From: Micromonospora sp. WMMD1128 | Lineage (GTDB): Bacteria; Actinomycetota; Actinomycetes; Mycobacteriales; Micromonosporaceae | Direction: 5' to 3' | Assembly: GCF_027497235.1 (NCBI RefSeq) | Contig: NZ_CP114902.1 | Location: forward strand, 3,733,501 to 3,797,500 | DNA length: 64,000 bases | In this document: piece by piece, positions 12,218-34,744 of the stretch | Layout of the letters: each line of letters begins with the position of its first letter | Position numbering within the stretch: the first letter of the stretch is position 1 | Made by a program: the position numbers and the translations under genes | Notes under the pieces: generated by a model | Databases searched by the model: none | What the model saw: only the letters and a program-made list of their open reading frames with translations | What the model was told of the DNA's origin: nothing

Positions 12218-12263
12218 CGTGGGGGCCGGTGGTGCCCGACGGCGCCACCGGCCCCCACGTTTT
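12218..12263. terminator. Bidirectional terminator
   Basis: A perfect 15-bp stem (12218-12232 with 12245-12259) closes a 12-nt loop and is followed by TTTT on the + strand. It sits between the convergent ends of the 199-residue protein gene and the FtsK-type ATPase gene. It is the best intrinsic terminator in the window. Confidence 0.85.
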
Positions 12264-16627: not shown

Positions 16628-16653
16628 TTCGATCCTCCTCCTTTCGTCAACAG

Positions 16654-16691
16654 CGGACACGCCCGGCGCGGATGCGCTCCGGGCGTGTCCG
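16654..16691. terminator. Hairpin between WXG100 and ATPase genes
   Basis: A perfect 13-bp inverted repeat (16654-16666 and 16679-16691) with a 12-nt loop and no T-run. It lies in the 85-bp gap after the WXG100 gene and could protect the upstream message, raising the secreted partner above the ATPase. Confidence 0.55.
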
Positions 16692-16712
16692 AGGGGTCTG
16701 CCGCCGCTGCCG

Positions 16713-17006
16713 TCAGCCGAGGCGCGAGCCGAGATCCTGGTCGGTGGAGGCGAACGCCTCCCCGACCGAACGGACGTAGTTGCCGATCCCCTGCAGGCCC
16801 TGGTTCACCTGGTCGAAGCCCTTGGCGAACTCGTCGAAGAAGGGCTGGAACCTCTGTTGTGCGGCCGGGGTGCGATAGCCCTGGGCGAGCAGGTTCTGCA
16901 CCTTGCCGCGCACCTCGACCAGCTTGTCCTGCAGTTGGGTGAAGTCGTTCAGCAACGCTGCCGACGTCTGGGCGGTCTCGTCGCTGTTGACCGCGAAATC
17001 GGGCAT
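16713..17006 (-). CDS. WXG100 family protein (variant turn motif)
   Basis: This 97-residue helical-hairpin protein has the classic WXG100 length and spacing. Its turn reads QGYRTPAAQQRFQPFFDEF, so the Trp and Gly of W-x-G are replaced around residues 43-45. The C-terminal YVRSVGEAFASTDQDL resembles the Y-x-x-x-D/E export signal of ESX substrates. AAGGAG lies 7-8 bp before ATG 17006. It is sandwiched between a large candidate substrate and the EccC-like ATPase, so it is probably a secreted partner or chaperone. Confidence 0.88.
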   Translation of the reverse strand: MPDFAVNSDETAQTSAALLNDFTQLQDKLVEVRGKVQNLLAQGYRTPAAQQRFQPFFDEFAKGFDQVNQGLQGIGNYVRSVGEAFASTDQDLGSRLG

Positions 17007-20326: not shown

Positions 20327-23300
20327 TCAGAAGCCGGTCAGCCCGGCGCCGTACGGGTAGAGCGGGTTGCCGTAGGTGGTCGCCGGTGGCTGGTCGGCGT
20401 CGATCGCGGCCCGGATCTGCGACCGTTCGGCCGCGGTCGCGCCCAGGTCGTACGGCAGGTCCCACGCCTCGACGGCGTCGGCCGGGGTGTCGGTGCCGCC
20501 CGGGCGCAGCACGTCGGACAGGTTGCGGGGCAACTGCCAGGGCAGCTTGCCGCGCGGCTGGTAGTCCCCGAAGAGCAGGCCGGCCAGGGCCGGACCCATC
20601 TCCTCACCGCCCCGGTAGGTGACCACGATCGCGCTTGCCAGGTCCCGCCACTCGGTGATGACGTAGGGCCGCGGCAGGACCAGCGCCACCACCACCGGGA
20701 TGCCCCGGGCGCGGAACTTCTGGATCACCGCGAGCTGGTCCGGCGGCAGGTAGGGCTGTTCCTTCGCCCAGTTCGTCGCGTGGGTGTAGGACGCTTCGCC
20801 GACCGCGACGACCGCCAGCTTGGGGTTCGGGCTGTCGTCCTGGTGAACGGTCACCCCGGCCTGCGCGGCCCGGGCGCGGACCGCGTCCAGGATCGTCTGC
20901 GACCCGTACTCGGCGTGGAAGAAGCTCGTCCACACGCAGCAGGAGCCGCCGTCGGCCGCGCGGGGACCGGCTACCACGATGTCATCACCGGCGGTGAGCC
21001 GCACCGGTAGCGTGCCGGCGTCGTTCTTCAGCAGCGTCATCGACTCCCGCGCGGCCTGGTTGGCCAGCGCCGCGTACGCCGGCTGGTGGAAGCGGTACGG
21101 ACCGTTGACCGGATCGCCGTACGGTGCCTCGAAGATGCCGAGTTGGAACTTCACCCGCAGCACCCGCCGGACCGCGTCGTCGATCCGCGACGCCGGCACG
21201 TTCGCCACGAAGTCGGCGATCGAGAAGCCGGCCGCGCCCGGGTCGGCGCCACCCATCACGTCGGAGCCGGCCTTCGCCGCGCCGATCCAGGATCCCGAGG
21301 GCAGCCAGTCGGTGGTGATCAGGCCCTGGTAGCCGAGATTCTGCCGCAGGTAGGCGAGGATCTTGGCGCTGTCCCCGGCGCCGGGACCGCCCGGGTCGAG
21401 CAGCGAGCTGCCCGCGTAACCGGGCATGATGTTGACCGCGCCCGCCTCCATCGCCGCCCGGAACGGGATCATGTGGTATTTGATCGTCACGCTGTCGTAG
21501 ACGATCAGCGCCTCGCCGCCCGCGCCCTCGCCCGGCCAGTGCTTGACCGTCGCCAGCACGGAGTGCGGGTTCAGCTCCGGGCCGCCCTGCAGGCCGGCCA
21601 CCAGGGCGCGAACCTGGGCCGCGGCGACCTGCGCGTTCTCACCGTTGCCCTCCTGGATACGCGGGTAGATCACCTTGGTGCCGACCTCGGCCAGCGGACC
21701 GAGCACGCCGCGGGTGCCGACCTCCAACTGTTCCCGCCGCTGCACGTCGCCGAGCTGGTAGTCGAGCGGGTAGTTCTTCGCGGCGGCGAGTGCGCTCTGC
21801 ATCGGGTAGGTCGTCTGGTAGCCGTGGATGGTGTCGCCCGCGGAGACGAACGGGATGCCCAGCCGGGTGCCGGCCGAGGCGAGCAGTTGCTGGTGCAGGT
21901 CCGCCGCCTGCGCGGGGCCGAAGTGCCACCCCGACCGGGGGTACGCCTGGGCGTTGTAGAAGAGCTGGTACGCCTTCTCCTCGGGCGTCATCCGCGCCAG
22001 CAGGTCGTCCACCCGGGTCTGGACCGGCAGCCGCCAGTTCTCGTACGGCTCGATGGACCCGTTCCGGTTGAGGTCGCGGGCGCCGGCGACGACGCCGATC
22101 CCGTCGGCGACGCTTTCCAGGGTGGGCAGGTAGACGCTGAAGCGGCGGATGTTCGAGGTGACCGGGGTGCCGCCGACCGTGGTGACGTACCACTGGTAGG
22201 TCCAGCGGTCCGGCAGGTCCCAGGTGGGCGTGTAGGACGTGCCGGTCGGCTCGGCGACCTTCGTGTAGAGGTCGAGCAGGTTGCCGGTGGCGGTGAAGTC
22301 GTAGTCGGTGCGGCTGATGTTGATCCACACCTGGTAGCGGGTCGCGCCGGTGACCGCCGTCCAGCTCAGCGTGGGTCGGCGGGTGGTGGTGACCATCGCC
22401 GCGTCGGCCGGCGCGGTCAGGGTGAACTGGTTGCGGGTCGCCGGCGGGCGGGTGGGGCCGGAGAGCAGCGGCGCGGTGGTGGCGGTGTCGTCGACGCTGC
22501 CGTACGCCTGTAGCTCCCACAACGAGTACCCGTAGCCGGTGGCCCGGGCCGCGCCGTACAGGCGCAGGTAGCGGCCGGTGCCGCTGACGGTGAGTTGTTC
22601 GGTGCCACCGCGGCCGGTGGTGGTGGCGTAGATCGTCGTCCAGGTCGACCCGTCGGTCGACGTCTCCAGCCGGTAGCCGGTGGCGTAGGCGGCCTCCCAG
22701 GCGAGCACCACCCGGTTGATCGTGGCGACGCCGCCGAAGTCGACGCGGAGCCACTGCGGGTCGCTGCCGAACTGGCTCGACCAGCGGGTGGTGCTGCGGC
22801 CGTCGAGCGCGGCGGCGGGGGCGTTGCCGCCCTCCCACGAGGACGCGGCGACCGTCCGGAACTCGGAGATCGGCCGGCCGGTGGGCGGCGGAGTGGTGCC
22901 GATGCTGCCGAACACCTTGAACTCCCAGAGCGAGTAGCCGTAGCCGGTGGCCCGGCCCGTGCCGTACATCCGCACGTACCGGCCGGAGCCGGTCACCGCG
23001 AGGGTCTGCGTGCCGCCGGCCCCGGCGGTGGTCGAGTAGACGGAGGTCCACGGCCCGGACGGCGCGGGGGCCACCTGGATCTGGAACGCGGTCGCGTAGG
23101 CCGCCTCCCAGACGAGCTGCACCTGGTCGACGGTGGCGGTCGCGCCGAGGTCGATCTGGAGCCACTGCGGGTCGGCGAAGGCGCTCGACCACCGGGTGCC
23201 GGCGTCACCGTCGGTGGCGGCGGCGGCCGGCGTCGCCGCGCCCTCGGTCGACGAGGCGGTGGTCGGGCGCCCCTGCGAGATCAGCGGCCCGGCCGCGCCG

Positions 23301-23416
23301 GCGGCCGGGCCGGGCACGACGAGGTAGGTGGCGAGGAGGGCGAGCAGCGCCAGCGCCACGGCGGCCGGGCGGTGCCGGCGGCGCGCGGGTACGGGCAGCG
23401 GTGGTGTCGTGGGCAT
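20327..23416 (-). CDS. Secreted GH3 glycosidase with two CBM32 (F5/8-type) modules
   Basis: This 1029-residue exported enzyme probably acts as an exo-beta-glucosidase on beta-glucans. It has a signal peptide (about 1-41), two CBM32/discoidin modules (about 45-170 and 180-305; TRWSSAFADPQWLQIDLGA and TRWSSQFGSDPQWLRVDFGG) and an Ig/FN3-like module (about 320-415). The GH3 N-domain runs from about 450 to 720, with KHWPGEG and the nucleophile segment GLITTDW. The GH3 C-domain follows. ATG 23416 is chosen since GGGAG precedes it. It is divergent from a GH64 gene whose CBM32 is nearly identical to module 1. Both promoters carry the same 14-bp site. Confidence 0.92.
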   Translation of the reverse strand: MPTTPPLPVPARRRHRPAAVALALLALLATYLVVPGPAAGAAGPLISQGRPTTASSTEGAATPAAAATDGDAGTRWSSAFADPQWLQIDLGATATVDQVQLVWEAAYATAFQIQVAPAPSGPWTSVYSTTAGAGGTQTLAVTGSGRYVRMYGTGRATGYGYSLWEFKVFGSIGTTPPPTGRPISEFRTVAASSWEGGNAPAAALDGRSTTRWSSQFGSDPQWLRVDFGGVATINRVVLAWEAAYATGYRLETSTDGSTWTTIYATTTGRGGTEQLTVSGTGRYLRLYGAARATGYGYSLWELQAYGSVDDTATTAPLLSGPTRPPATRNQFTLTAPADAAMVTTTRRPTLSWTAVTGATRYQVWINISRTDYDFTATGNLLDLYTKVAEPTGTSYTPTWDLPDRWTYQWYVTTVGGTPVTSNIRRFSVYLPTLESVADGIGVVAGARDLNRNGSIEPYENWRLPVQTRVDDLLARMTPEEKAYQLFYNAQAYPRSGWHFGPAQAADLHQQLLASAGTRLGIPFVSAGDTIHGYQTTYPMQSALAAAKNYPLDYQLGDVQRREQLEVGTRGVLGPLAEVGTKVIYPRIQEGNGENAQVAAAQVRALVAGLQGGPELNPHSVLATVKHWPGEGAGGEALIVYDSVTIKYHMIPFRAAMEAGAVNIMPGYAGSSLLDPGGPGAGDSAKILAYLRQNLGYQGLITTDWLPSGSWIGAAKAGSDVMGGADPGAAGFSIADFVANVPASRIDDAVRRVLRVKFQLGIFEAPYGDPVNGPYRFHQPAYAALANQAARESMTLLKNDAGTLPVRLTAGDDIVVAGPRAADGGSCCVWTSFFHAEYGSQTILDAVRARAAQAGVTVHQDDSPNPKLAVVAVGEASYTHATNWAKEQPYLPPDQLAVIQKFRARGIPVVVALVLPRPYVITEWRDLASAIVVTYRGGEEMGPALAGLLFGDYQPRGKLPWQLPRNLSDVLRPGGTDTPADAVEAWDLPYDLGATAAERSQIRAAIDADQPPATTYGNPLYPYGAGLTGF

Positions 23417-23451
23417 GTGCGGCTCCCGGATGGTGGTGGCGGGATGGTGCG

Positions 23452-23465
23452 GAGAGAGCGCCCTC
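23452..23465. promoter_or_regulatory. Operator-like site, GH3 side
   Basis: GAGAGAGCGCCCTC lies 36 bp upstream of the GH3 start. An exact second copy sits 27 bp upstream of the GH64 start. Its core GAGAGCGCCCTC is a near-palindrome around GCGC and resembles CebR-type LacI operators (TGGGAGCGCTCCCA in the literature). No regulator gene is adjacent. Confidence 0.6.
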
Positions 23466-23486
23466 GAATCCAGCGTCATCGACGTT

Positions 23487-23506
23487 CTTCGTTCAAGTCA
23501 ACGAAG
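23487..23506. promoter_or_regulatory. Inverted repeat in GH3/GH64 divergent promoter
   Basis: A perfect 7-bp inverted repeat, CTTCGTT and AACGAAG, with a 6-nt spacer. It lies between the two operator-like copies in the divergent promoter, so it could bind a second regulator controlling both genes. Confidence 0.5.
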
Positions 23507-23584
23507 TGGGGAAGGTCCGGAAAAGATCATGGAAAGGGATGTCTCCTTGACAGCGACCGCGATACGGGTCCACCCTCGGTGACC

Positions 23585-23598
23585 GAGAGAGCGCCCTC
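23585..23598. promoter_or_regulatory. Operator-like site, GH64 side
   Basis: This is the second exact copy of GAGAGAGCGCCCTC, 133 bp from the first. It lies just before the Shine-Dalgarno sequence of the GH64 gene. The placement suggests joint repression of the divergent glucanase genes. Confidence 0.6.
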
Positions 23599-23624
23599 CG
23601 TCGGATCCACCGAAGGAGGCGTTC

Positions 23625-25043
23625 ATGTCCCCCACCCCACCCGTCCCGCACCGGCTCGCGCCGGGCCGTCCCGTCCACCACCGCCGCCGTCCCGGGCGTC
23701 GGTGGCTCGCCGCCGCCGCGACCGCCCTCACCCTGCTCGCCGGCGGCATGCTCGCCGACGCCGCCTCGGCCGGCGCCGACCCGGGGGTCGCCGCCTGCGG
23801 CGGCAACGTGGCAGCCGGCCGACAGGCGGTCGCCTCGTCGGTCGAGAGCGCCGCCTTCCCGGCGTCGGCCGCCGTCGACGGCAACACCGGCACCCGCTGG
23901 TCGAGCGCCTTCGCCGACCCACAGTGGCTGCGGATCGACCTCGGCGCCACCCAGGACATCTGCCAGGTCACCCTCCGCTGGGAGGCCGCCTACGCCGTCG
24001 CCTTCCAACTCCAGACGGCCGCCGCGCCGGACGGGCCGTGGACCACCGTCCACTCCACCACCACCGGCGCCGGCGGCACGCAGACCATCGCGGTCACCGG
24101 CACCGGGCGGTACGTGCGGATGTACGGCACCGGACGGGCCACGCCCTACGGCTACTCGCTCTGGGAGGTGGCGGTCGCCACCACCGGCGGCTCGACGCCA
24201 CCACCGACCACCCCGCCGCCGGCCGGCGGTTTCTGGGGCGACACCACAGGCATCCCGCCGGCCCGCAACGTGCTCACCGTCAAGGTGCTCAACCGGACCA
24301 ACGGCCGCTACCCCGACAGCCAGGTCTACTGGAGCTTCAACGGTCAGACGCGCTCCATCGCCGAGCAGCCCTACCTGGACATGCCGGTGAACTCGGCGGG
24401 CCGGATGTACTTCCGCCTCGGCTCGCCGACCAGCCAGTACAGCGACTTCATCGAGTTCACGGTCGGCGCGAACCAGTTCAACGGCAACACCACCCGGGTC
24501 GACGCGTTCGCCCTCAAACTGGCGATGCGGCTGCACGCCCGCGACGGCTACGACGTCGCGGTCGGCGAGAACGAGACGACCTTCGCCGAGGACCGCTCGG
24601 CGACCTTCCAGCGTTTCGCCGACGCGGTGCCGGCGGAGTTCAAGCACCTGGCCAGCATCGAGGCGCCCTACCGGATCCCGGCGCCGGGAAGCTCCCCGCA
24701 GTTCCGGGCCGGCGGCCAGTACGCCGGCTACTTCACCGCGTACGCCAACTCCGTCGGGCTGCCCGCGGCCACGTCGGACATCTTCGGCTGCGCCGGGCGG
24801 TTCGCCGGTGACCCGACCGGCTGCGCGGCGCTGAACCGGCACACCGCGCAGTTGCCCCGGGCACAGTGGGAGGACCCGGCCCGCTTCTACCAGCAGTCGC
24901 CGGCCAACTGGTACGCGAAGTTCTGGCACGATCGCGCCCTCGGCGGTCGCGCCTACGGCTTCCCGTACGACGACGTCGCCGACCAGTCGTCGTTCGTCTC
25001 CCACGGCGACCCGCAGTGGTTGCTCGTCGCCGTCGGCTGGTGA
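23625..25043 (+). CDS. Secreted GH64-type beta-1,3-glucanase with CBM32
   Basis: This 472-residue exported protein has a long basic signal peptide (about 1-50), a CBM32 module (about 57-186), a Thr/Pro linker (187-202) and a thaumatin-like GH64 domain (about 205-472). GH64-like features are VYWSFNGQTRSI, DFIEFTVGANQFNGNTTRVDAF, the Cys-containing FGCAGRFAGDPTGCAALNRH and the C-terminal SHGDPQWLLVAVGW. The catalytic part (about 268 residues) is shorter than many GH64 enzymes. GGAGG precedes ATG 23625. It would cleave laminarin or fungal beta-1,3-glucan, complementing the divergent GH3 enzyme. Confidence 0.88.
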   Translation: MSPTPPVPHRLAPGRPVHHRRRPGRRWLAAAATALTLLAGGMLADAASAGADPGVAACGGNVAAGRQAVASSVESAAFPASAAVDGNTGTRWSSAFADPQWLRIDLGATQDICQVTLRWEAAYAVAFQLQTAAAPDGPWTTVHSTTTGAGGTQTIAVTGTGRYVRMYGTGRATPYGYSLWEVAVATTGGSTPPPTTPPPAGGFWGDTTGIPPARNVLTVKVLNRTNGRYPDSQVYWSFNGQTRSIAEQPYLDMPVNSAGRMYFRLGSPTSQYSDFIEFTVGANQFNGNTTRVDAFALKLAMRLHARDGYDVAVGENETTFAEDRSATFQRFADAVPAEFKHLASIEAPYRIPAPGSSPQFRAGGQYAGYFTAYANSVGLPAATSDIFGCAGRFAGDPTGCAALNRHTAQLPRAQWEDPARFYQQSPANWYAKFWHDRALGGRAYGFPYDDVADQSSFVSHGDPQWLLVAVGW

Positions 25044-25050
25044 GCCGGTG

Positions 25051-25086
25051 ACGGTTCCGGAACCGCCCGGCCGGTTCCGGAACCGT
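25051..25086. terminator. Strong hairpin after GH64 gene
   Basis: A perfect 15-bp inverted repeat (25051-25065 and 25072-25086) with a 6-nt CCCGGC loop starts 8 bp after the GH64 stop. Each arm contains GGTTCCGGAACC, itself a 12-bp palindrome, so the element could also bind a dimeric protein. No T-run follows. Confidence 0.7.
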
Positions 25087-25221
25087 CCACGGTCAGGCCG
25101 ACATCCTGCCTGCCGGCGGCGGGTTTGCCGGGCCGGCGGGGTGGTCCACCCACCCGAGTCCGACCGTTCCGGTGGCGGAAAAACGTCCGCCGCTCGTCCG
25201 CGGAACGATCACATCAGGCGG

Positions 25222-25251
25222 ATGACACATTGTTGCCTGTCGTTGCATAAT
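25222..25251 (+). promoter_or_regulatory. Candidate promoter of the TDO/kynureninase operon
   Basis: A -35-like ATGACA at 25222-25227 and a -10-like CATAAT at 25246-25251 are 18 bp apart in the only A/T-richer part of this gap. They lie about 68 bp upstream of the GTG start at 25319. The call is based on sequence match only. Confidence 0.45.
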
Positions 25252-25318
25252 GTGCGCTGCACGCGCGTGATCACACCGTCGGACTCCGACGCCGCGCCGA
25301 CCGGAGGGAATCAATTCC

Positions 25319-26017
25319 GTGAAGCAGGACCACTCACCTGTGCTGCCTGGTGACGGCGCCACGGACTATGCGCGCTACATGCGACTGGACACGCTGCTCG
25401 ACCTGCAACGGCGTCCGGCCGAGATGATCCACCGCGACGAGTTGCTCTTCCAGGTGGTGCACCAGTCCACCGAGTTGTGGCTGAAGCTCGCCGCCGCCGA
25501 GTTGACCGAGGCGGTCACCCGGCTGCGTGCCGGCGAACTGGCGGCGACCGAGTCGCTGCTGGCCCGGGCGACGCTCGGAATCCGGCTGGTCACCGACCAG
25601 CTGGACATGTTCCGGCACCTGTCCCCGGCCGACTTCCAGGCCATGCAACCGGCTCTGGGCAAGGGATCCGGGGCGGAGTCACCCGGCTGGCGGCAGGTCC
25701 AGGCCGCCAGCCGGCAGCTCGGTCGGGTCTTCGCCGAGCACCTCGAAGCCCAGGGCGTCGAGCCGGCCACGCTGGGCCGGCCAGATCCCGCCGACCCCGT
25801 CCAGCGGCTCGCCGAGGCGCTCATCGAGTGGGACGAACGGGTGTCGCTGTGGCGGACGCGGCACTATCGGGTCGCCCTGCGCGTCGGGGGCCACGATCCC
25901 GGCGGCGCCGAGGCGACGATGCTCGCCAAGCTCGTCGGACACCGCTTCTTCCCGGAACTGTGGCGAGCCCGCCTGAAGCCCGCCGCCGGACCCGAATCAC
26001 CGGCCGGCCACGGTTGA
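25319..26017 (+). CDS. Tryptophan 2,3-dioxygenase-like hemoprotein, short form
   Basis: This 232-residue member of the TDO superfamily shows YARYMRLDTLLDLQ, DELLFQVVHQSTELWLKL, GKGSGAESPGWR and FFPELWRARL. Compared from memory with Xanthomonas TDO, the distal His55 (here His48) and the haem-ligand His240 (His182) are kept. Substrate-binding Tyr113 and Arg117 become Phe106 and Gln110, and the GTGG loop is lost. It is also about 50 residues shorter than bacterial TDOs. It may therefore use a different substrate or serve as a partner subunit. GTG 25319 follows GGAGGG. It is the first gene of an operon with a TDO-like/kynureninase fusion and a methyltransferase. Confidence 0.85.
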   Translation: MKQDHSPVLPGDGATDYARYMRLDTLLDLQRRPAEMIHRDELLFQVVHQSTELWLKLAAAELTEAVTRLRAGELAATESLLARATLGIRLVTDQLDMFRHLSPADFQAMQPALGKGSGAESPGWRQVQAASRQLGRVFAEHLEAQGVEPATLGRPDPADPVQRLAEALIEWDERVSLWRTRHYRVALRVGGHDPGGAEATMLAKLVGHRFFPELWRARLKPAAGPESPAGHG

Positions 26018-26044
26018 CAATCCTCGTTCACCAGTAATTGTCAA
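26014..26044. promoter_or_regulatory. Inverted repeat between TDO-like gene and fusion gene
   Basis: A perfect 8-bp inverted repeat, TTGACAAT (26014-26021) and ATTGTCAA (26037-26044), has a 15-nt spacer and overlaps the stop of the short TDO-like gene. It could be a weak hairpin affecting downstream expression, or an operator. Confidence 0.45.
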
Positions 26045-26063
26045 TTCCTCCTCGCCCACCTGC

Positions 26064-28532
26064 GTGGCGACCGAAATGTCGAGGTGCGGCTTCGTGCGTG
26101 AACTGACGAGTTGGCTGTCCGGCGGCGGTGCCACCGGCAGTTTTCCGTACTCAGCGGTGCTCGCGGAGTTTCACCGAGCCGGTAAACACTTCGTCGAAAA
26201 GGAAGTGCTCGCCCTGCTCGACCAGGCCCGTACCCGGTTCACCGCGCGGGAGCCGCACGCCCGCCTGCTGGGTGACTTCCTCGACGTCGCGCTCGACAAG
26301 TGGGACGGCCGGTACGACTACCGCAGCTACCTGGCGCTGCGACTGCTCCGGCTGCCCGGCGGGGACGACGTCACCGGTGGGGCCGACGCCGGCCGGTCCA
26401 CCGCCCGCCGGGACACCGACCGGCTCCTCGTCCGCCTGGTCGCCGACGCGCTGGCCTTCGAGCTGACCGCCGCCGCCGGCGCCACCGACCTGCTGCCCGA
26501 ACGGCGCCCGAGCCGGGACGTGGTGGCCAAGCGCTACCGGCTCGGCGTACGGGCCGTCTCGCCCGCCCTCGCCCGGCTGGGCATCGCCGCGACGGTCCCC
26601 GGAGGTGCGACGGCGGCGACCCCGGACGAGCTGCGGGCCGTCGCCGCCGACGCCGAACCGGAGGCGGAGCTGATCCTGCGGCTGAGCATGCTGCCGGTGC
26701 ACGTGTCGCACGACGAATACCTGTTCATCCGGGTGCTCCAGTCGTACGAGTGCCTCTTCGCTCAGATCGCCGAGGAGCTGCGCGCCACCGTCGCCGCCCT
26801 GGCCACCGGCCACGCGGGGCGGGCGGCCGATCGGCTGGCGTACGCCCGGGAGTCGCTCACCGCCGCCGGACCGCTCTTCTCGCTGCTGGCCACGATGCAG
26901 CCGGAGGCGTTCCGGACGTTCCGGGAATACACCGCCGGAGCCAGCGCCATCCAGTCCCGCTCCTACAAGCTGATGGAGTCGCTGTGCCGCACACCGGAGG
27001 GGTCGCGGTTGGACTCGGCCGCGTACCGCCAGGTGCCGGAGGTACGCGACCTGGTGCACGCCGGGCAACCGTCGATCGACGACGCGTACCGCACGGCGGT
27101 GCGGAACGGCCTGCTCGCCGCGCCCGACGGCGAACGGGTCGAGCGGGAGATGCGGTCCTTCGCCGCCGCGGTGCTCCAGTGGCGGCGCACGCACCACCGG
27201 CTCGCCACCCGGATGCTCGGCCCCCGGCCCGGCACCGGCTACACGGAGGGTACGCCCTATCTGGCCGCCGCCCGGTCCATCCCGGTCTTCACCTCCGTCG
27301 CCGGCGAAACCCGAACCCCGTCCCCACACCGAGCCGACCGGAGGCAGCCCCGAGTGAGTGCACCGCACCGGAACCTCGACCCCGACACGCCCGAGTGCCT
27401 CGACACCAGCGCGCACGCCGCGCTGCGCGCCGAGTTCCCCCTGCTGAGTACCGGCGTCTACCTGAACAACAACTCGACCGGCGCGGTGCCACGGGGCGCG
27501 GAGCGGGTGCTCACCGGCTACTGGCGGACGCTGCGGAGTTGGCGGGACGAGGTATGGCAGGACTGGCACGTCGGCCTCGACCGGTACGCCGACTCCGTCG
27601 CCGCGTTCATCGGCGCGCCCGCGGGCAGCGTTGTCACCGACGCGAATCTCAGCACGCTGCTCGCCCGGGTCGCGTCCTGTTTCGACTACCGCCCGCCGCG
27701 GAACCGGATCGTCACCACCGACCTGGAGTATCCGACGGTGCCGTTCATCTGGAACGCGTTCCGCCGGTACGGCGCCCGGCTCGACGTGGTCGGCTCCGGC
27801 GGCCCGCGGTTCGACGAGGACGCCGTCGAGGCACGGATCGACGAACGGACGCTGCTGGTGTGCGTCCCGCACGCCAGCTTCTCCTCGGGCGCCACCATCG
27901 ACCTGCCCCGGCTGGTGCGGCGCGCCCACGACGTCGGCGCGCTTGTGGTCGTCGACGCCTTCCAGAGCATCGGGGTCATGCCGCTGGACGTGACCACGCT
28001 CGGCGTCGACGTGGTCCTCGGCGGCGCGCACAAGTGGCTCTGCGGCGTCGGCACCGCCTTCTGCTACGTACGCCCGGATCTGGTGCCGGAACTGGAGCCG
28101 GCGGCGACCGGCTGGCAGGCCGGGGACCGGGCCTTCACGTTCCAACCGTCGACCGGCTGGGCCGACCGGGCCCGACGGTTCGCCGGTGGGACGCCGTTCC
28201 CGCTGACCTCGCTGATCTCCCAGGTCGGCCTGGACCTGCTGGCGAGGGTGGGCGCCGGCGCGATCCGGCGGCACTCGCTCGCCTGCACCGGTCGGATCCT
28301 GGAGCGGGCCGCGGCGGCCGGCATAGACGTGGTCAGCCCGACCGAGCCGCACCGGCGCGGCGGCGTCGTGTGCCTGGACGTCGCCGACGGCGAAGCCGTC
28401 AAACGACGGCTGGTGGCGCGCGACATGGTCTGTAGCTGGCGGGGCTACCTGCGGGTCGGCCCGCACGTCTACAACACCCTCGACGAGATCGACACGTTCA
28501 TGGACGCCCTGGAAGAGGAGCTGAAAAGGTGA
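26064..28532 (+). CDS. Fusion of TDO-like domain and kynureninase-like PLP enzyme
   Basis: This 822-residue protein has two enzyme domains. Residues about 1-405 are TDO-like with an extra N-terminal helical region: VSHDEYLFIRVLQSYECLF, FRTFREYTAGASAIQSRSYK and HHRLATRMLGPRPGTGYTEGTPYL. Haem-ligand His (His377), Arg287 and the GTG loop Thr391 are kept, but the distal His is Leu225. Residues about 445-822 are a fold-type I kynureninase-family PLP enzyme: YLNNNSTGAVP, VDAFQSIGVMPLD and LGGAHKWLCG, with Lys657 as the Schiff base. GTG 26064 has no clear ribosome site; GTG 26094, after GAGG, is an alternative. A second start may lie inside at GTG 27354. Confidence 0.85.
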   Translation: MATEMSRCGFVRELTSWLSGGGATGSFPYSAVLAEFHRAGKHFVEKEVLALLDQARTRFTAREPHARLLGDFLDVALDKWDGRYDYRSYLALRLLRLPGGDDVTGGADAGRSTARRDTDRLLVRLVADALAFELTAAAGATDLLPERRPSRDVVAKRYRLGVRAVSPALARLGIAATVPGGATAATPDELRAVAADAEPEAELILRLSMLPVHVSHDEYLFIRVLQSYECLFAQIAEELRATVAALATGHAGRAADRLAYARESLTAAGPLFSLLATMQPEAFRTFREYTAGASAIQSRSYKLMESLCRTPEGSRLDSAAYRQVPEVRDLVHAGQPSIDDAYRTAVRNGLLAAPDGERVEREMRSFAAAVLQWRRTHHRLATRMLGPRPGTGYTEGTPYLAAARSIPVFTSVAGETRTPSPHRADRRQPRVSAPHRNLDPDTPECLDTSAHAALRAEFPLLSTGVYLNNNSTGAVPRGAERVLTGYWRTLRSWRDEVWQDWHVGLDRYADSVAAFIGAPAGSVVTDANLSTLLARVASCFDYRPPRNRIVTTDLEYPTVPFIWNAFRRYGARLDVVGSGGPRFDEDAVEARIDERTLLVCVPHASFSSGATIDLPRLVRRAHDVGALVVVDAFQSIGVMPLDVTTLGVDVVLGGAHKWLCGVGTAFCYVRPDLVPELEPAATGWQAGDRAFTFQPSTGWADRARRFAGGTPFPLTSLISQVGLDLLARVGAGAIRRHSLACTGRILERAAAAGIDVVSPTEPHRRGGVVCLDVADGEAVKRRLVARDMVCSWRGYLRVGPHVYNTLDEIDTFMDALEEELKR
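27340..27356 (+). promoter_or_regulatory. Internal Shine-Dalgarno and GTG at the fusion joint
   Basis: GGAGG at 27340-27344 is 9 nt before an in-frame GTG (27354, codon 431), exactly at the linker between the TDO-like and kynureninase-like domains. It could give a separate kynureninase of about 391 residues, or it is a relic of the start codon from before the genes fused. Confidence 0.55.
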
Positions 28533-29587
28533 CTGTCACGCTGTCCCCCCGGGCGCTGATGAGTCTGCTCGCCAACGGGCCGAAGGCCATGGACGTGCTG
28601 GAGACCGCGCTCGGCACCGGCCTGCTCGACGCCCTCGATCCCGGGCCGGCGCGCCTCGGTGAGCTGGCCGACCGGTTCGCACTGCGCCCCCTGCGGCTCT
28701 ACAAGTTCCTCGACTGCCTGGAGAGCCTCGGCGTCGTCGAACGCAGTGAGCCGGACGACGACATCACGACGGCCACGTACCGCGCGGTGCCCGGTCTCCG
28801 GGACGCCGTCACGGCGGTCGTCGGCCCCGGCGCCGTCGAACGGGACCGGGACCGTTACCCCTGGCGGCTGCTGCACGGGCGGCTGGCCGAGAGCCTGCGC
28901 GGCGACGTGAGCATGAGCGACGACGACTTCGCCTGGCCTCCGAAGACCGACGCGCAGACCGCCGACTTCGAGCGCAGCATGGCCGTCGGTCTCGGCCCGG
29001 TGATCGAGACGACGCACCGCCACGCCGGCCGGCTGTGGTCGGACCGGTGCCGTCTGCTGGACGTCGGCGGCGGTGACGGCACGCTCGCCGCGCACATCCT
29101 CGACGACGCGCCGGGGCTGCGGGTCGACGTGTTCAACCTGCCGGCGGTGGCGCCGCTGGTGCAGGCCACCGGGACCCGCACCGGGCACGACGCCCGGCTG
29201 GGCTTCGTCGGCGGTGACTTCCTCGCCGAGCCGCTGCCCACCGGCTACGACGCCATGGCGTTCGTCCGGGTGCTGCACGACTGGCCGAACGACGTCGCCC
29301 GCCGGCTGGTCGAGAAGGCGTACGCGGCCCTCGACCCGGGCGGGCTGCTGGTGATCTGCGAGGAGTTCCGCACCCCGGACCGCCTGGCGATGCAGTTCTT
29401 CTGGAGCTACTTCCTGATCGGTGTCGACAGTTGCGTCAGCCGACTGCGGGAGGTCGAGTTCTACACCAGCCTGCTCAAGGAGGTCGGCTTCGACCGGGTG
29501 GCCGTGCTGCCCGGCGGCTGGGAGCTGGCCTGCGGATACAAGCCGGTGGCCGGAGCGCCGGAGCTACGATGCGCCACCGCACCCTGA
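28529..29587 (+). CDS. SAM-dependent methyltransferase (O-methyltransferase family 2 type)
   Basis: This 352-residue enzyme has an N-terminal winged-helix dimerisation domain (about 1-95, GLLDALDPGPARLGELADRFALRPLRLYKFLDCL) and a Rossmann methyltransferase domain with the SAM-binding LDVGGGDG (177-184). A VRVLHDWPNDVARRLVEKAYAALDPGGLLVICEE block follows. Relatives methylate hydroxyls but also the aromatic carbon of 3-hydroxykynurenine or hydroxytyrosine in actinomycin- and saframycin-type pathways. GTG 28529 overlaps the fusion gene stop (GTGA) and follows GGAG. The context suggests it methylates a kynurenine-derived aromatic; this is inference. Confidence 0.87.
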   Translation: MTVTLSPRALMSLLANGPKAMDVLETALGTGLLDALDPGPARLGELADRFALRPLRLYKFLDCLESLGVVERSEPDDDITTATYRAVPGLRDAVTAVVGPGAVERDRDRYPWRLLHGRLAESLRGDVSMSDDDFAWPPKTDAQTADFERSMAVGLGPVIETTHRHAGRLWSDRCRLLDVGGGDGTLAAHILDDAPGLRVDVFNLPAVAPLVQATGTRTGHDARLGFVGGDFLAEPLPTGYDAMAFVRVLHDWPNDVARRLVEKAYAALDPGGLLVICEEFRTPDRLAMQFFWSYFLIGVDSCVSRLREVEFYTSLLKEVGFDRVAVLPGGWELACGYKPVAGAPELRCATAP

Positions 29588-30876
29588 CCGGCCTGGCCGC
29601 GGCTCTCCTGCTCATCTCCGCGTCCGCCGCGGCGCCCGCGCTCGCGGCCGGTCCGGTGCTGACCGCCCGGATCGTGCAGACCTCCGTCTGGAACACCGGA
29701 TACGGTGCCGAGGTCGTCGTCGCTGCGGGTGGGCAGCAGAGCTTCGGCTTCAACGCCGGTGGCTCCGGGCTGCCGTCCGGCTGCACCGTCGACGGACTGC
29801 CGTGTGCCGGCGGTCCCGCGCCCACAAGCCCCATCCCGTCGAGCCCGACGCCGTCGCCCAGCCGGTCGCCCGGTCCGAGCCCTTCACCCACCGAGCCGAC
29901 CGGGACCGTGGTGGACGTCTCGACCGCCGACCAGCTCGACGCCGCCCTGGTGGAAGCCCTGCCCGGGCAGACGATCCGGCTCGCCGCGGGCGAATACCAC
30001 GGCCCGTTCCTCATCCGACGCCCCGGCACCGCCGGCAGGCCGATCACGCTGACCGGGCCGCGGACGGCGGTGCTCGTCAACGACGGACCGTCCGGCGCCG
30101 CACCCCCGTGCCCCGTGCCGACGACCGGCTGGGACCCGGGGTACGGCCTGTGGGTGTTCGCCGCGCCCTACTGGAACCTGACCGGCTTCACCGTCCGGGA
30201 CGCCAAGAAGGGCGTCGTGATCGACGGCTCCCCGCACGTCGTCGTCGACGGTCTGCACGTGCACCACACCGACGAGGAGGGCGTGCACTTCCGCCGTTCC
30301 TCGGCCGACGGGGTCATCCGTGACTCGATCGTCGAACACACCGGCCTGACGCAACCCGGATACGGCGAAGGTGTCTACATCGGCTCCGCCGGATCGAACT
30401 GGGGATGTCACGGCAACTCCGACGGCGTCGACCGCTCCGACCGGGTCCAGGTCATCGGCAACCGGATCGGCCCGTACGTCAGCGCCGAGCACATCGACGT
30501 CAAGGAGGGCACGTTCGACGGCGTCATCCGCGCCAACACGTTCGACGGGCGCGGCATCTCCGGCCGGAACTCCGCCGACTCCTGGGTCGACGTCAAGGGC
30601 ATCGGCTACACCATCGACGACAACACCGGCACGTTCGCCACCCCGGGCACGTTCGCCAACGGGTACGAGACACACAACCCGACCAGCACGCCCGCGTTCG
30701 CGAACGGGTGCGGCAACGTGTGGCGGGCCAACACCGCCGACCTCGGTGGAGTGGGCGCCTACGCGATCCGCGTCACGTCGACGTCGAAGTGCGCCGGCAA
30801 CCCCAACGTCGTGTACGCCTCGAACTCGGTCCGCAACGCCACCGCGGGGTTGACCAACATCGCCGTGACTCCCTGA
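29569..30876 (+). CDS. Secreted right-handed beta-helix protein with truncated CBM2-like module
   Basis: This 435-residue protein has a signal peptide (1-27, ending APALAA), a CBM2-like region of only about 50 residues (about 30-79), a Pro/Ser linker (80-108) and a parallel beta-helix domain (about 112-435). The helix shows FTVRDAKKGVVIDGSPHVVVDGLHVHH, RDSIVEHTG and VQVIGNRIG repeats, as in pectate-lyase-like proteins. Catalytic residues cannot be assigned. ATG 29569 lies inside the end of the methyltransferase gene (19-bp overlap) and follows GGAG. The overlap suggests co-transcription with the kynureninase operon, although its role looks like polysaccharide binding or cleavage. Confidence 0.82.
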   Translation: MRHRTLTGLAAALLLISASAAAPALAAGPVLTARIVQTSVWNTGYGAEVVVAAGGQQSFGFNAGGSGLPSGCTVDGLPCAGGPAPTSPIPSSPTPSPSRSPGPSPSPTEPTGTVVDVSTADQLDAALVEALPGQTIRLAAGEYHGPFLIRRPGTAGRPITLTGPRTAVLVNDGPSGAAPPCPVPTTGWDPGYGLWVFAAPYWNLTGFTVRDAKKGVVIDGSPHVVVDGLHVHHTDEEGVHFRRSSADGVIRDSIVEHTGLTQPGYGEGVYIGSAGSNWGCHGNSDGVDRSDRVQVIGNRIGPYVSAEHIDVKEGTFDGVIRANTFDGRGISGRNSADSWVDVKGIGYTIDDNTGTFATPGTFANGYETHNPTSTPAFANGCGNVWRANTADLGGVGAYAIRVTSTSKCAGNPNVVYASNSVRNATAGLTNIAVTP

Positions 30877-31177: not shown

Positions 31178-31250
31178 TCAGTTGCTGTTCAGGGCGATGG
31201 CGTGAACGGAGCCGCCGCTGGCCAGCGGTGGCCGCACCCCGCCCAACCGG
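31141..31250. repeat. DNA segment repeated at the esterase 3' end (copy 1)
   Basis: This segment matches two pieces of the esterase region, about 36089-36165 and 36435-36475, with the roughly 270 bp between them missing here. The similarity continues past both stop codons, so it is DNA-level duplication with an internal deletion and not only protein homology. Confidence 0.65.
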
Positions 31251-34200
31251 TGCCTGCGTGTGATCCTTACCAGGGCGGATTCCGACGTTTGCACGCCGGC
31301 AATCGTTGCTGTGACAGTGACCCGCGCATGCCCGGTCCTGGTTGCGGTCAGGACTCCCGCCGAGGTGACGCTCGCCTCGGCGGTGTTGGTGTCCATCGGG
31401 GCGATCTGGTAGCTGTACGTCGCTGTCGGGTTCGGCGGGAACACACTCGCGGACAGCTGCGTCCCCAAGCGGGCCTGGTCGAGCTTGACTGCCCGGTCAC
31501 CGAAGTCGACCAGCGACGTGTAAGCGTTCGGGAACGCCGAGCCGGTGGCGTCCGGTGCGCCGGACGTCACCACGACCGGGAACGTGGTCGACTTGCTCTC
31601 CCCGTTGGCGGTGGCCTTGGCCGTGATCAGGACGGTGCCGGTGGACACGGGCGTGACCGAGCCGCGGGCGTCGACCGTCGCGATCGACGGGTCGGAGGAG
31701 GTGTACTTCACCTTGAGCGCCCGATCGGACAGATTCCAGAACGTCATGTCGTGCTTGGTGACCGACAGTTGGGCGTTGATCCGGTTGTCGGGAGTGTCCA
31801 GGCTCAACTCGGTGGCGTCCGGCTGCGCCGAGACCACCTCGACACCGGCCGTGCGGTGTCCGACCACCCGCACCGTCACCGACTTCAGGTCCGCGTCGGC
31901 CGAGCTCGGACCGGCCAGGATGGTCCAGTCGCCCGTGGGGAACACCTTCTTGTGCTTCACGTTGTCCCAGAACCACAGGTCACCGGCGTCAATGGTGACC
32001 TGTACCGTCTCGGGGGTCCCGGTGATCAGGCCGCTCTTGACGAAACCCTTCAGCTGCTTGAGCGGACGCTGGTTCCCGTCGGCGCCCTTCGGAGCCTTGG
32101 CGTAGACCTCCACGACAGCCTTGCCCGGGCAGTTGGCGACCTGGTTCGACACGGGCACCGAGACCGTCACCGGATCGTCGGGAGTGATCTTCGAGGAGGA
32201 CAGTCTCGGAGTGCCGTAGACGAACGGCGAGTACGACAGACCTTGACCGAACACGTAGTGGGGCGCCGCGCAACCGGGGCCGACCTGGTAGTAGAGGTAC
32301 GTCCGGCCGCACCTGGCGCCCTCCGCCCTGGTCATCCGGTAGTCCTCGATCCCGCGGTCCGGCGCGGCCGCCGGTCCAAGTTGTGCGTCGATGTCGGAGT
32401 ACCAGGTCAGCGGCAGCTTGCCGGAGAAGTTGGCCACCGCGGTACGCCCGTCCTCCAGCGCCACCGCGTCGTTGAACAGCAGCTCGGCCATCGCCCTGCC
32501 CTGATACATGCCGTTGAAGGACGACCAGACGATCGCCCCCACGCTCGGCAGGTCCTTGACCGCGCTGACGTCGACCATGGTCTTGGCCTGGATCCACACC
32601 GCGATCTTCTTGCCGTACTTCTGGGCGAGCGGGGCGATCGAGTCCCGGATCAGCTCGGCCTGCATGCGCGGCATGACGACCGTTGCGCGATCCGTACCCT
32701 CTCCGCCGTCGTTGTTCCGGTGACCGACGACGACCACGACATTGTCGGCCTGTGAGATCTGGTATTCGGCGGTCGCCGCATCCGCGACGGGATCGCAGGG
32801 GCTGCTGGCACACAGAGAGGTGGTGATCGCGGTGCCGCTGGCGTCGAGGACGTCGGGGAACACCGCGAGGTGGCTGGACAGGAACGGCGTGCTGGAGCCC
32901 GCGGTCACGGCCGAGGTGGCCGACCCCGTCCGTCCGGCCAACGCCTGGGCAAAGGTGGTGTTGACAGCCGTGGGCCCGGAGTAGGAACCCGACTGGAACC
33001 TGTTGAGGGCGTCCACATGCCCCAGGGCGACTGTCTTGCCGCTCACAGCGCCCGCGAACGGGAGCGTTCTGGCGTCGTTCTTGAGCAGCACGGGCGCCTC
33101 GAGGGCGGACTCGTGCGCGATCGCACGGTGCGCCGGCGAAGCCAGCTTGACGTCGGGATCGCCGGCCTCCGACAGCGAGTAGGACTCGCTGTTCCACGGT
33201 ACCGAGGCGACGGGATCGAACTCGCCCAACTGGAACCGCGCGGTGAAGGCGCGGACGAGCGCGATGTCGATGTCGGCCTCGCCGACAAAGCCTTGGCTCT
33301 GAGCCGCCGGGAGTCCGCTCGCCGTCGGGTAGTCACCGCCCGAGCAGTCAAGGTCCGTGCCGGCCTTGAGCGCCCAGGCGTTACCGAGGGTCTTGCTGAT
33401 CTGCGTCGCCCCGCCGAGCTGCACGGGCCGCCACGAGTGGCCCGACGTTCCGGTTCCGTGCACGCGGGTGATCGCGTCGCAGTCGGAGACGATGAAGCCG
33501 TCGAAGCCGTACGACCTGCGCAGCATGGTCTCGATGGCGTACCGGCTCGCCGCAGCCGGCGTACCGGGAGTACCGCCGGGGGTGGCATCGTCGCGCGGGC
33601 TCCACAGGGTCGGGTAGCTCGATGCGGACGGGTAGTCCGTGGTGTAGTCCTCCACCACGGAGAAGGCGTTGTAAGCGGCCATCAGCGACCGCGCGCCCGC
33701 CTCGCCGGCCGAGGCCGCGAAGGGCGGCAGGAAATACTCGTGCATCGAACGCTCGGTGATGTTCGACGTGCCGAAGTCACGGTTCGCCTCGGAGTTGTTC
33801 GCCAGATAGTGCTTCGGCGTGGCGACCGCCTGAATGTAGTCGGCCGCCCCGGTGGGTACCGTGTCGGGCCGCGATGCGGTGTCGCCCTGCAGACCGGTCA
33901 CAAAGGCGCCGGCCACCTGGCCTGCCAGGAACGGATCCTCGGTGTAGGACTCGTCCGCCCGCCCCCAGCGGGGATCGCGGTTGAGGTTCTGGTTCGGCGA
34001 CCAATAGGTCAAGCCGTGACAGGCACCACCGGCGGGGTTGGGGTTCGCCACACCCGGCGGGCAGGACGTGTTGTAGGTCACGCGGGCCTCGTCAGCGATA
34101 CCGCCGGCGATCTCCTGGGTGATATCTGAATTCCACGTCGATGCGATCGAGGTGCTCTGCGGATATTGGGTGTAGTTGCCGTTGCCGGGGACGGTCGGGA

Positions 34201-34555
34201 AGTAGATCCCGTGGTTCGCCTCTCCCCAGTACCCGTACGACCTCACGCCGAGCCGGTCGATCGCCTTCGGCTTCGCACGCCAGGTGGCATGCGGCTGCAT
34301 CGCTATGAGCTGGTCGTACTTCTCTTCCAGCGTCATGCGCGAAACCAAGTCCGCCGCACGGACGCTGAATGGCAGCGAGGTGTTCCGGTACGCCGGCGTG
34401 TCCTCGGCGGAGGCCGACGTCGGCCGCGCGAACGCGGCGAGCCCGCTCGCTGCCACAGCCCACGCCAGCCCGAGCGCCAAGGACCTACGTCCTGGACTCC
34501 TGGCGCCTCCGCCGTGCCCCCTTGCTCGCGGGGGCGCGAAACCGGTCTTCACCAT
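31178..34555 (-). CDS. Secreted GH3 glycosidase (beta-xylosidase/glucosidase-like) with Ig-like domain
   Basis: This 1125-residue exported enzyme starts at ATG 34555, with AAGGAG upstream. Its signal peptide ends near residue 47 (PTSASA). The GH3 N-domain shows DLVSRMTLEEKYDQLIAM, NLNRDPRWGRADESYTEDP and the nucleophile motif GFIVSDCDAI. A GH3 C-domain (VVVVGHRNNDGGEGTDRA), an FN3-like domain and a Big_2-type Ig repeat (SVTPVSTGTVLITAKA) follow. It ends in a short tail, RLGGVRPPLASGGSVHAIAL, that is a shortened copy of the PxKF-like end of the esterase at 36126. It is the target of the LacI-type site at 34896-34909. Confidence 0.9.
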   Translation of the reverse strand: MVKTGFAPPRARGHGGGARSPGRRSLALGLAWAVAASGLAAFARPTSASAEDTPAYRNTSLPFSVRAADLVSRMTLEEKYDQLIAMQPHATWRAKPKAIDRLGVRSYGYWGEANHGIYFPTVPGNGNYTQYPQSTSIASTWNSDITQEIAGGIADEARVTYNTSCPPGVANPNPAGGACHGLTYWSPNQNLNRDPRWGRADESYTEDPFLAGQVAGAFVTGLQGDTASRPDTVPTGAADYIQAVATPKHYLANNSEANRDFGTSNITERSMHEYFLPPFAASAGEAGARSLMAAYNAFSVVEDYTTDYPSASSYPTLWSPRDDATPGGTPGTPAAASRYAIETMLRRSYGFDGFIVSDCDAITRVHGTGTSGHSWRPVQLGGATQISKTLGNAWALKAGTDLDCSGGDYPTASGLPAAQSQGFVGEADIDIALVRAFTARFQLGEFDPVASVPWNSESYSLSEAGDPDVKLASPAHRAIAHESALEAPVLLKNDARTLPFAGAVSGKTVALGHVDALNRFQSGSYSGPTAVNTTFAQALAGRTGSATSAVTAGSSTPFLSSHLAVFPDVLDASGTAITTSLCASSPCDPVADAATAEYQISQADNVVVVVGHRNNDGGEGTDRATVVMPRMQAELIRDSIAPLAQKYGKKIAVWIQAKTMVDVSAVKDLPSVGAIVWSSFNGMYQGRAMAELLFNDAVALEDGRTAVANFSGKLPLTWYSDIDAQLGPAAAPDRGIEDYRMTRAEGARCGRTYLYYQVGPGCAAPHYVFGQGLSYSPFVYGTPRLSSSKITPDDPVTVSVPVSNQVANCPGKAVVEVYAKAPKGADGNQRPLKQLKGFVKSGLITGTPETVQVTIDAGDLWFWDNVKHKKVFPTGDWTILAGPSSADADLKSVTVRVVGHRTAGVEVVSAQPDATELSLDTPDNRINAQLSVTKHDMTFWNLSDRALKVKYTSSDPSIATVDARGSVTPVSTGTVLITAKATANGESKSTTFPVVVTSGAPDATGSAFPNAYTSLVDFGDRAVKLDQARLGTQLSASVFPPNPTATYSYQIAPMDTNTAEASVTSAGVLTATRTGHARVTVTATIAGVQTSESALVRITRRHRLGGVRPPLASGGSVHAIALNSN

Positions 34556-34744
34556 TGACGGTCTCCTTCTCCTCTTCACGCTGCAGAGCTCTCGATGGTG
34601 CTGCCTTTCGCTGCACGGCGAGCCGAAGCTCGTCATCCTCGAACTGCCTTCCGTGCCGGTCGACACGGACGGTCGGATTAGGCTGCAGCACGGCGCGATC
34701 CGGCTGCTCAACCGTCATGGTGGGGGTGACGGGATCCGAACCTC

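Follow-up and report, generated by a model that had tools for sequence, protein, structure and literature searches.

Layout of the operon and its promoter-like block

The window analyzed here is a stretch of 64,000 nucleotides from Micromonospora sp. WMMD1128 (contig NZ_CP114902.1, positions 3,733,501 to 3,797,500), in which positions 25319-29587 hold a coupled operon of three open reading frames. These encode a short TDO-like protein (sTDO), a fusion of a TDO-like domain (lTDO) with a kynureninase-like domain (KYN), and an O-methyltransferase. The reading frames run exactly as originally predicted (25319-26017, 232 aa; 26064-28532, 822 aa; 28529-29587, 352 aa), and they are tightly packed, with 46 bases between sTDO and the fusion and a 4-nt overlap, GTGA, where the fusion gene meets that of the methyltransferase. 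The features of the locus are as follows:

25222..25251, + strand: putative sigma-70-like promoter of the operon, ATGACA-18-CATAAT; the single site in 25000-30000, with 0.1 expected from shuffles
25227-25251, + strand: 25-bp block conserved 5' of sTDO, which includes the -10 element
25303..25308, + strand: ribosome-binding site of sTDO, GGAGGG, read in the sequence; comparable purine-rich stretches stand in many aligned relatives
25319..26017, + strand: sTDO, 232 aa, a short TDO-like protein predicted to carry haem; His48 (distal), His182 (proximal) and Gln110 where TDO has its substrate Arg
26064..27299, + strand: the fusion's lTDO domain, spanning about residues 1-412; a helical N-terminal part and a TDO-like core, which has Leu225 in the distal site, Arg287, His377 as the proximal His and a GTG loop at 390-392
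27300..27386, + strand: linker/junction, with an extra base near 27307 compared with G093, a split relative; in split relatives the GTGA at 27354-27357 serves as overlapping stop and start
27387..28532, + strand: KYN-like PLP domain, about residues 442-822; Pfam PF00266 and PF22580 (KYNU_C); PLP Lys657, Asp631 and Arg797 kept
28529..29587, + strand: O-methyltransferase, 352 aa, with an LHDW stretch; Pfam PF00891; GTGA overlap with the fusion gene

Of 26 Micromonospora-type loci, 21, including the window and G093, have the 25-bp block at 78-94 bases 5' of sTDO, a figure that is descriptive and no independent test, as the pattern was composed from the same sequences; it was absent from the remaining five (L062, L070, L074, L076 and L085). 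In the 3.73 Mb searched, all 29 matches to the block sit 77-94 bases before an sTDO start, with both strands counted and some genomes present twice under different handles. Moreover, the whole genome holds a single match with up to 3 mismatches allowed, so the block yields no additional regulon targets, and the genome-wide regulon search with it returned no further target genes. The operon thus seems to be mobile with its own promoter.

The O-methyltransferase scores well above the PF00891 cut-off (6.5e-21, 75.1 bits against 22.3), and SAM binding is what its family would lead one to expect. Elsewhere in the window, glycoside hydrolases flank the operon on both sides (20327-25043 and 31178-34711: a GH3 with F5/8 type C domains, a GH64 and a second GH3), and a type VII secretion-like region at 12263-17006 comprises genes for a 1465-aa FtsK/SpoIIIE ATPase (12263-16660) and for a WXG100 protein (16713-17006). 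None of the 16 window proteins that were family-scanned (3 from the operon and 13 others) is a formamidase, a hydroxylase or an NRPS.

Two TDO-type proteins and a kynureninase-like domain

Both TDO-like proteins score above the cut-off of Pfam PF03301 (34.9 bits), with 70.2 bits for sTDO (2.6e-19) and 61.1 bits for the N-terminal half of the fusion (1.6e-16), and structural matches of the predicted models agree with the TDO-superfamily fold as well. Against the TDO equivalog TIGR03036, sTDO reaches 109.3 bits and the fusion 65.2 bits, both below the curated cut-off of 390.7. The TDO found elsewhere in the same genome also misses this cut-off (315.3 bits), so the failure separates sTDO and lTDO from ordinary TDOs less than it seems. 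That second TDO, of 292 aa, belongs to a separate TDO-kynureninase operon at 1.02 Mb of the 6.81-Mb genome (single contig, 99.98% complete), in which the kynureninase passes the equivalog cut-off of TIGR01814 (396 bits against 246.4) and is adjoined by a flavoenzyme that we call only KMO-like, since its best NCBIfam match is VioC, below cut-off. The presence of this set makes it unlikely that the sTDO/lTDO/KYN operon is the ordinary tryptophan route of the cell, and supports reading it as a dedicated, self-contained set distinct from that at 1.02 Mb.

The residues to which the original prediction had drawn attention, His48 and Gln110 in sTDO and Leu225 and Arg287 in the fusion, all stand at the positions given. 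In addition, both proteins keep the proximal His (H182 in sTDO, H377 in the fusion), which the prediction had not mentioned. Each of the two has a TDO core and, within it, a proximal His of its own; the idea of a split pair was not borne out. As in the TDOs of X. campestris (2nw8) and R. metallidurans (2nox), fold and proximal His are conserved, lTDO retains the Arg and the GTG loop, and sTDO retains the distal His. lTDO departs from these enzymes in its distal Leu, invariant over 77 loci, and in an additional N-terminal helical part of about 190 residues in the predicted model; its substrate Arg is likewise invariant (77/77), and so is the proximal His in the 76 loci that are readable there (one has a gap). 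In TDO, Arg and Thr hold the alpha-amino acid part of the substrate, and lTDO keeps the equivalents of both. Haem in sTDO and lTDO would be expected from what is known of the family.

In sTDO, distal and proximal His were both found in 65 of the 65 loci compared, and the substrate-Arg position is the one that varies. It is Gln in 20 and Lys in 2 of the 22 Micromonospora-type loci (group A, below), and Arg in 32 of 32 loci of the other type (group B), where the distal His is also present; the 11 remaining sTDOs have Arg (8), Gln (2) or Ala (1). Among the 121 closest sTDO proteins, 114 have Gln, and the change from Arg to Gln is limited mostly to the Micromonospora-type operon. The claim that the features of the two proteins are complementary thus holds for that operon, but a complementary active site as a general rule was rejected, as the other-type sTDOs hold both features. 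Loss of the distal His was also not accepted as a sign of inactivity: the TDO at 1.02 Mb has Ser there, and for the same reason the distal-site difference is weak evidence and does not point to a half-enzyme. Crystal structures of the H55A and H55S variants of X. campestris TDO exist, although their existence alone says nothing on activity.

The closest fold among the structural matches is MarE, the beta-methyl-L-tryptophan oxygenase of maremycin (PDB 8vyy, 9ca3), while PrnB and IDO match far more weakly than MarE or TDO. To our knowledge, MarE has neither a KYN-like nor an lTDO partner. The loop also differs: MarE has SLGGR (PMC12312684), the window PGGAEA and the sTDO consensus GT.G.P.

As for the C-terminal half of the fusion, KYNU_C (PF22580) scores above its own Pfam cut-off, and the best sequence match among solved structures is the P. 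fluorescens kynureninase 1qz9 (phmmer, 5e-35). Nevertheless, the domain falls short of the kynureninase equivalog TIGR01814 (68.4 bits against the cut-off passed by the canonical enzyme of the genome), as it does of the cysteine desulfurase model TIGR01979 sufS (94.9 bits against 475.1); this half of the predicted model has low confidence, with structural matches to cysteine desulfurases as well as to kynureninases. Residues could be counted in 54 of the 60 loci with a KYN match, L111, L118, L124 and L128, with weak or split matches, having been grouped as lacking KYN by a bit-score threshold. The equivalents of the PLP Lys, Asp201 and Arg375 of kynureninase are kept in 54 of 54, and PLP binding is to be expected on the strength of the family. 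On the other hand, Tyr226, Asp132 and His204 (1qz9 numbering), which we take to be functional residues of kynureninase, are gone in all 54, and are all present in the canonical kynureninase of the genome. In the window they are replaced by His656, Val559 and Gln634; across loci, the Tyr226 position is His in 22 of 22 group-A members and Met (18), Ser (5), Gly (5), Ala (2), Asn (1) or Leu (1) in group B, the Asp132 position is always Val, Ile or Leu, and the His204 position is always Gln. Such residues fit none of the activities compared here.

Distribution and neighbouring genes

Scanning GTDB genomes with an lTDO alignment gave 77 loci, in whose fetched stretches the partner genes were sought by tblastn. 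sTDO was matched in 67 of the 77 and KYN in 60, and all three genes in 60, some matches being partial or weak. These 60 loci come from Actinomycetota, Chloroflexota (MAGs) and Pseudomonadota (Tateyamaria, Cysteiniphilum, Photorhabdus and Yersinia alsatica). Group A (22 loci, including Hamadaea) has the order sTDO-lTDO-KYN-OMT, with an O-methyltransferase orthologue 72-87% identical in every member, and group B (32 loci) has, as a rule, sTDO-KYN-lTDO; the other 23 loci have no KYN match above the grouping score. Near group B stand a flavin hydroxylase (23 of 32), a formamidase-like PF04199 cyclase (22), a class IV aminotransferase (16) and an exporter-like protein (9), the last named from its sequence and the others from family scans, and none of the nine neighbour families searched for was found in group A. 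A protein with the oxygenase domain of nitric oxide synthase (NOS; PF02898, 4.4e-112 in L109:10179-11411) directly follows lTDO in four group-B loci of Micromonospora, L109, L112, L119 and L120, which suggests nitration or nitrosation in those four. An NRPS-like group occurs in 6 of the 77 loci, with condensation, AMP-binding and carrier domains in the two members checked by Pfam, and ATP-grasp genes sometimes lie near the trio.

Several individual loci deserve description on their own account. In Streptomyces, L117:8971-15825 combines lTDO with a carrier protein and a 1460-aa protein in which condensation, AMP-binding, carrier and ketosynthase domains follow one another, and it also encodes a 286-aa protein that resembles sTDO but has diverged (identity 25-29%; nothing in Pfam at 1e-5); L123, also from Streptomyces, resembles it, the domains having been checked in L117 only. 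In Yersinia alsatica (L127:2506-4233), methylaspartate mutase E/S-like genes (179.6 and 56.7 bits, below cut-offs) lie near the trio together with ATP-grasp-like proteins. A 461-aa protein at L077:4424-5809 represents a group present in 16 of the 77 loci and has no Pfam match at 1e-3.

Fifteen genomes with an incomplete trio in the fetched stretch were chosen for a further check. An sTDO was found in four of them (E < 1e-97), that of Chitinimonas lying, provided that both are on one contig, some 10 bases outside what had been fetched, and only weaker TDO-type matches in six others. The remaining five have lTDO and no other TDO-type match, and three of these are MAGs that are possibly incomplete. 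In these five (L096, L099, L101, L104 and L108) lTDO stands alone, and several solo lTDO genes have unrelated neighbours, such as the alanyl-tRNA synthetase-type gene next to lTDO in L096 and L099. Overall, the sTDO/KYN/lTDO partnership is strong, yet not absolute.

Within Micromonospora, match listings for 121 genomes were tallied by hand. Genes of the Micromonospora type were found in 35 genomes for sTDO (at least 63% identity), 35 for lTDO (at least 59%) and 36 for KYN (at least 71%, one partial); at least one of these genes is present in 38 genomes and the full trio in 32. In G005, lTDO and KYN lie on different contigs. Six of the 38 are without at least one gene: G073 and G077 have sTDO and lTDO and no intact KYN; G091 has sTDO, KYN and the methyltransferase and no lTDO; G099 lacks sTDO, and its partial KYN is separated from lTDO by about 65 kb; and G047 and G056 have KYN with only a 35% sTDO and no lTDO. 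sTDO and lTDO occur together in 34 of the 36 genomes with either Micromonospora-type gene. A second type of sTDO (41-58% identity) and of lTDO was found in the same 13 genomes, that is, together in 13 of 13; G050 has an additional 40% sTDO match that contains a stop, with no second-type lTDO.

Among the 20 loci compared, flanks outside the four genes, for those listed, are common to small groups of genomes and differ between groups. A clean empty insertion site was not found: G064 shares the left flank, at 92.7% DNA identity and ending at window position 25085, but its right side is different. No relative was found on viral contigs. As to the literature, the open-access matches listed, taken by titles and the starts of abstracts and with subscription journals mostly outside, hold no description of an sTDO/KYN/lTDO trio, and the word 'dioxygenase' is absent from PMC12154649, on hydrazine haem enzymes.

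A possible tryptophan-derived building-block module

Gene content, conservation, residues, predicted fold, the promoter-like block and co-occurrence all support the reading that we consider probable, namely an orphan module for a tryptophan-derived building block, with two separate haem oxygenases and a KYN-like PLP enzyme, of which the operon is the Micromonospora version. The module's haem and PLP binding, substrates, order of steps and product are what we infer. With its Arg and Thr kept, lTDO would oxygenate tryptophan or a tryptophan-derived amino acid, and KYN, co-translated with or fused to lTDO, would act on the lTDO product, probably by cleavage or rearrangement of a side-chain bond. 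sTDO would carry out a separate haem-dependent oxygenation, which in the Micromonospora form may act on a compound that has no free amino-acid head group, since the Arg is replaced by Gln. The O-methyltransferase would cap a hydroxyl. This sequence of events, from lTDO to KYN with sTDO apart and methylation as the cap, is at best a tentative ordering; a kynurenine- or anthranilate-type product is plausible. Haem enzymes of the TDO superfamily reach widely different products with a single fold, pyrrolnitrin intermediates among them. N-formylkynurenine and oxindoles also come from it (PMC12312684).

That lTDO and KYN work together is argued by their fusion in opposite orders, which means independent fusion events: among 47 protein matches, P0001-P0003 have, like the window, the order lTDO-KYN, and 11 near-full-length proteins (P0007, P0010-P0012 and P0014-P0020) have KYN-lTDO, with three more covering KYN partly. 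Whether the window itself holds one gene or two is a narrower matter. The original prediction had asked for the same fusion to be sought in other genomes and for a missed stop codon to be considered; lTDO-KYN fusions do exist elsewhere, but among the 32 Micromonospora genomes with all three genes, only that of the window gave lTDO and KYN as a single match, and there is no in-frame stop between the domains, but the fused state hangs on one base relative to G093. This extra base falls in an AAA run near 27307, a little ahead of the domain boundary, and model pLDDT across the junction (27300-27386) is mostly below 50. Four aligned split relatives have a stop/start overlap, GTGA in G093, G024 and G070 and ATGA in G085, and the GTGA is still intact in the window, in another frame. 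Furthermore, a direct frame test showed, for all 22 group-A loci and for 13 other fetched loci that are partly of the same species, that a stop precedes KYN and that KYN is read in a different frame. The fusion is, then, a local feature based on one extra base. A one-base assembly error, with lTDO and KYN being two overlapping, coupled genes in the cell, would account for these observations, and we hold it to be a serious possibility short of an even chance, given that the genome is a nearly complete single contig and that P0001-P0003 are lTDO-KYN fusions too.

Two other explanations would change the function assigned to the module. Because sTDO and lTDO are adjacent in the window and co-occur so regularly in Micromonospora (34/36 for the Micromonospora type, 13/13 for the second), they could form one haem oxygenase of two subunits with a shared or complementary site, sTDO giving the distal His and lTDO the substrate Arg and the GTG loop. 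We regard this as improbable, as each protein has its own proximal His and TDO core, the other-type sTDOs have both His and Arg (32/32), and lTDO is the only TDO-type match in five of the 15 genomes checked, three of them MAGs; moreover, sTDO matched 21 of the 47 proteins, always on their lTDO core, and no sTDO-lTDO fusion was among the 47. A heteromer of sTDO and lTDO with two separate sites may nevertheless form. Alternatively, the operon could be a duplicate TDO and kynureninase merely supplying anthranilate, in the manner of AntN (TDO) and AntP (kynureninase), which are dedicated to the antimycin biosynthetic cluster (PMC5883857). The enzyme superfamilies are the same, KYNU_C scores above its Pfam cut-off, and the failure of the genome's own TDO at the TDO cut-off means that such a failure is no strong sign of another function. 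Yet KYN lies far under the kynureninase cut-off and is without the equivalents of Tyr226, Asp132 and His204 in 54 of 54 loci, two TDO-type proteins would be superfluous for this purpose, and a canonical set exists elsewhere in the genome. The antimycin system also has one TDO, separate genes and an NRPS/PKS line to receive the anthranilate, in contrast to the two divergent TDO-type proteins and no assembly line here, and an anthranilate supply is, in our opinion, quite unlikely.

Returning to the building-block module, a broader and still doubtful proposal is that sTDO, lTDO and KYN form a catalytic unit so far unrecognized and present in three phyla or more, where two different haem oxygenases flank a PLP side-chain reaction and turn tryptophan into a new class of building blocks, with a neighbouring NOS adding an N-O or N-N function in some Micromonospora. 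The Micromonospora form, four genes in a compact operon that brings its own promoter-like block, is suited to heterologous expression. Altogether, the recurrence of a pair of divergent TDO-type members, with Leu and His, respectively, at the distal site in every locus compared, next to a KYN without kynureninase residues, predicts a chemistry as yet unassigned.
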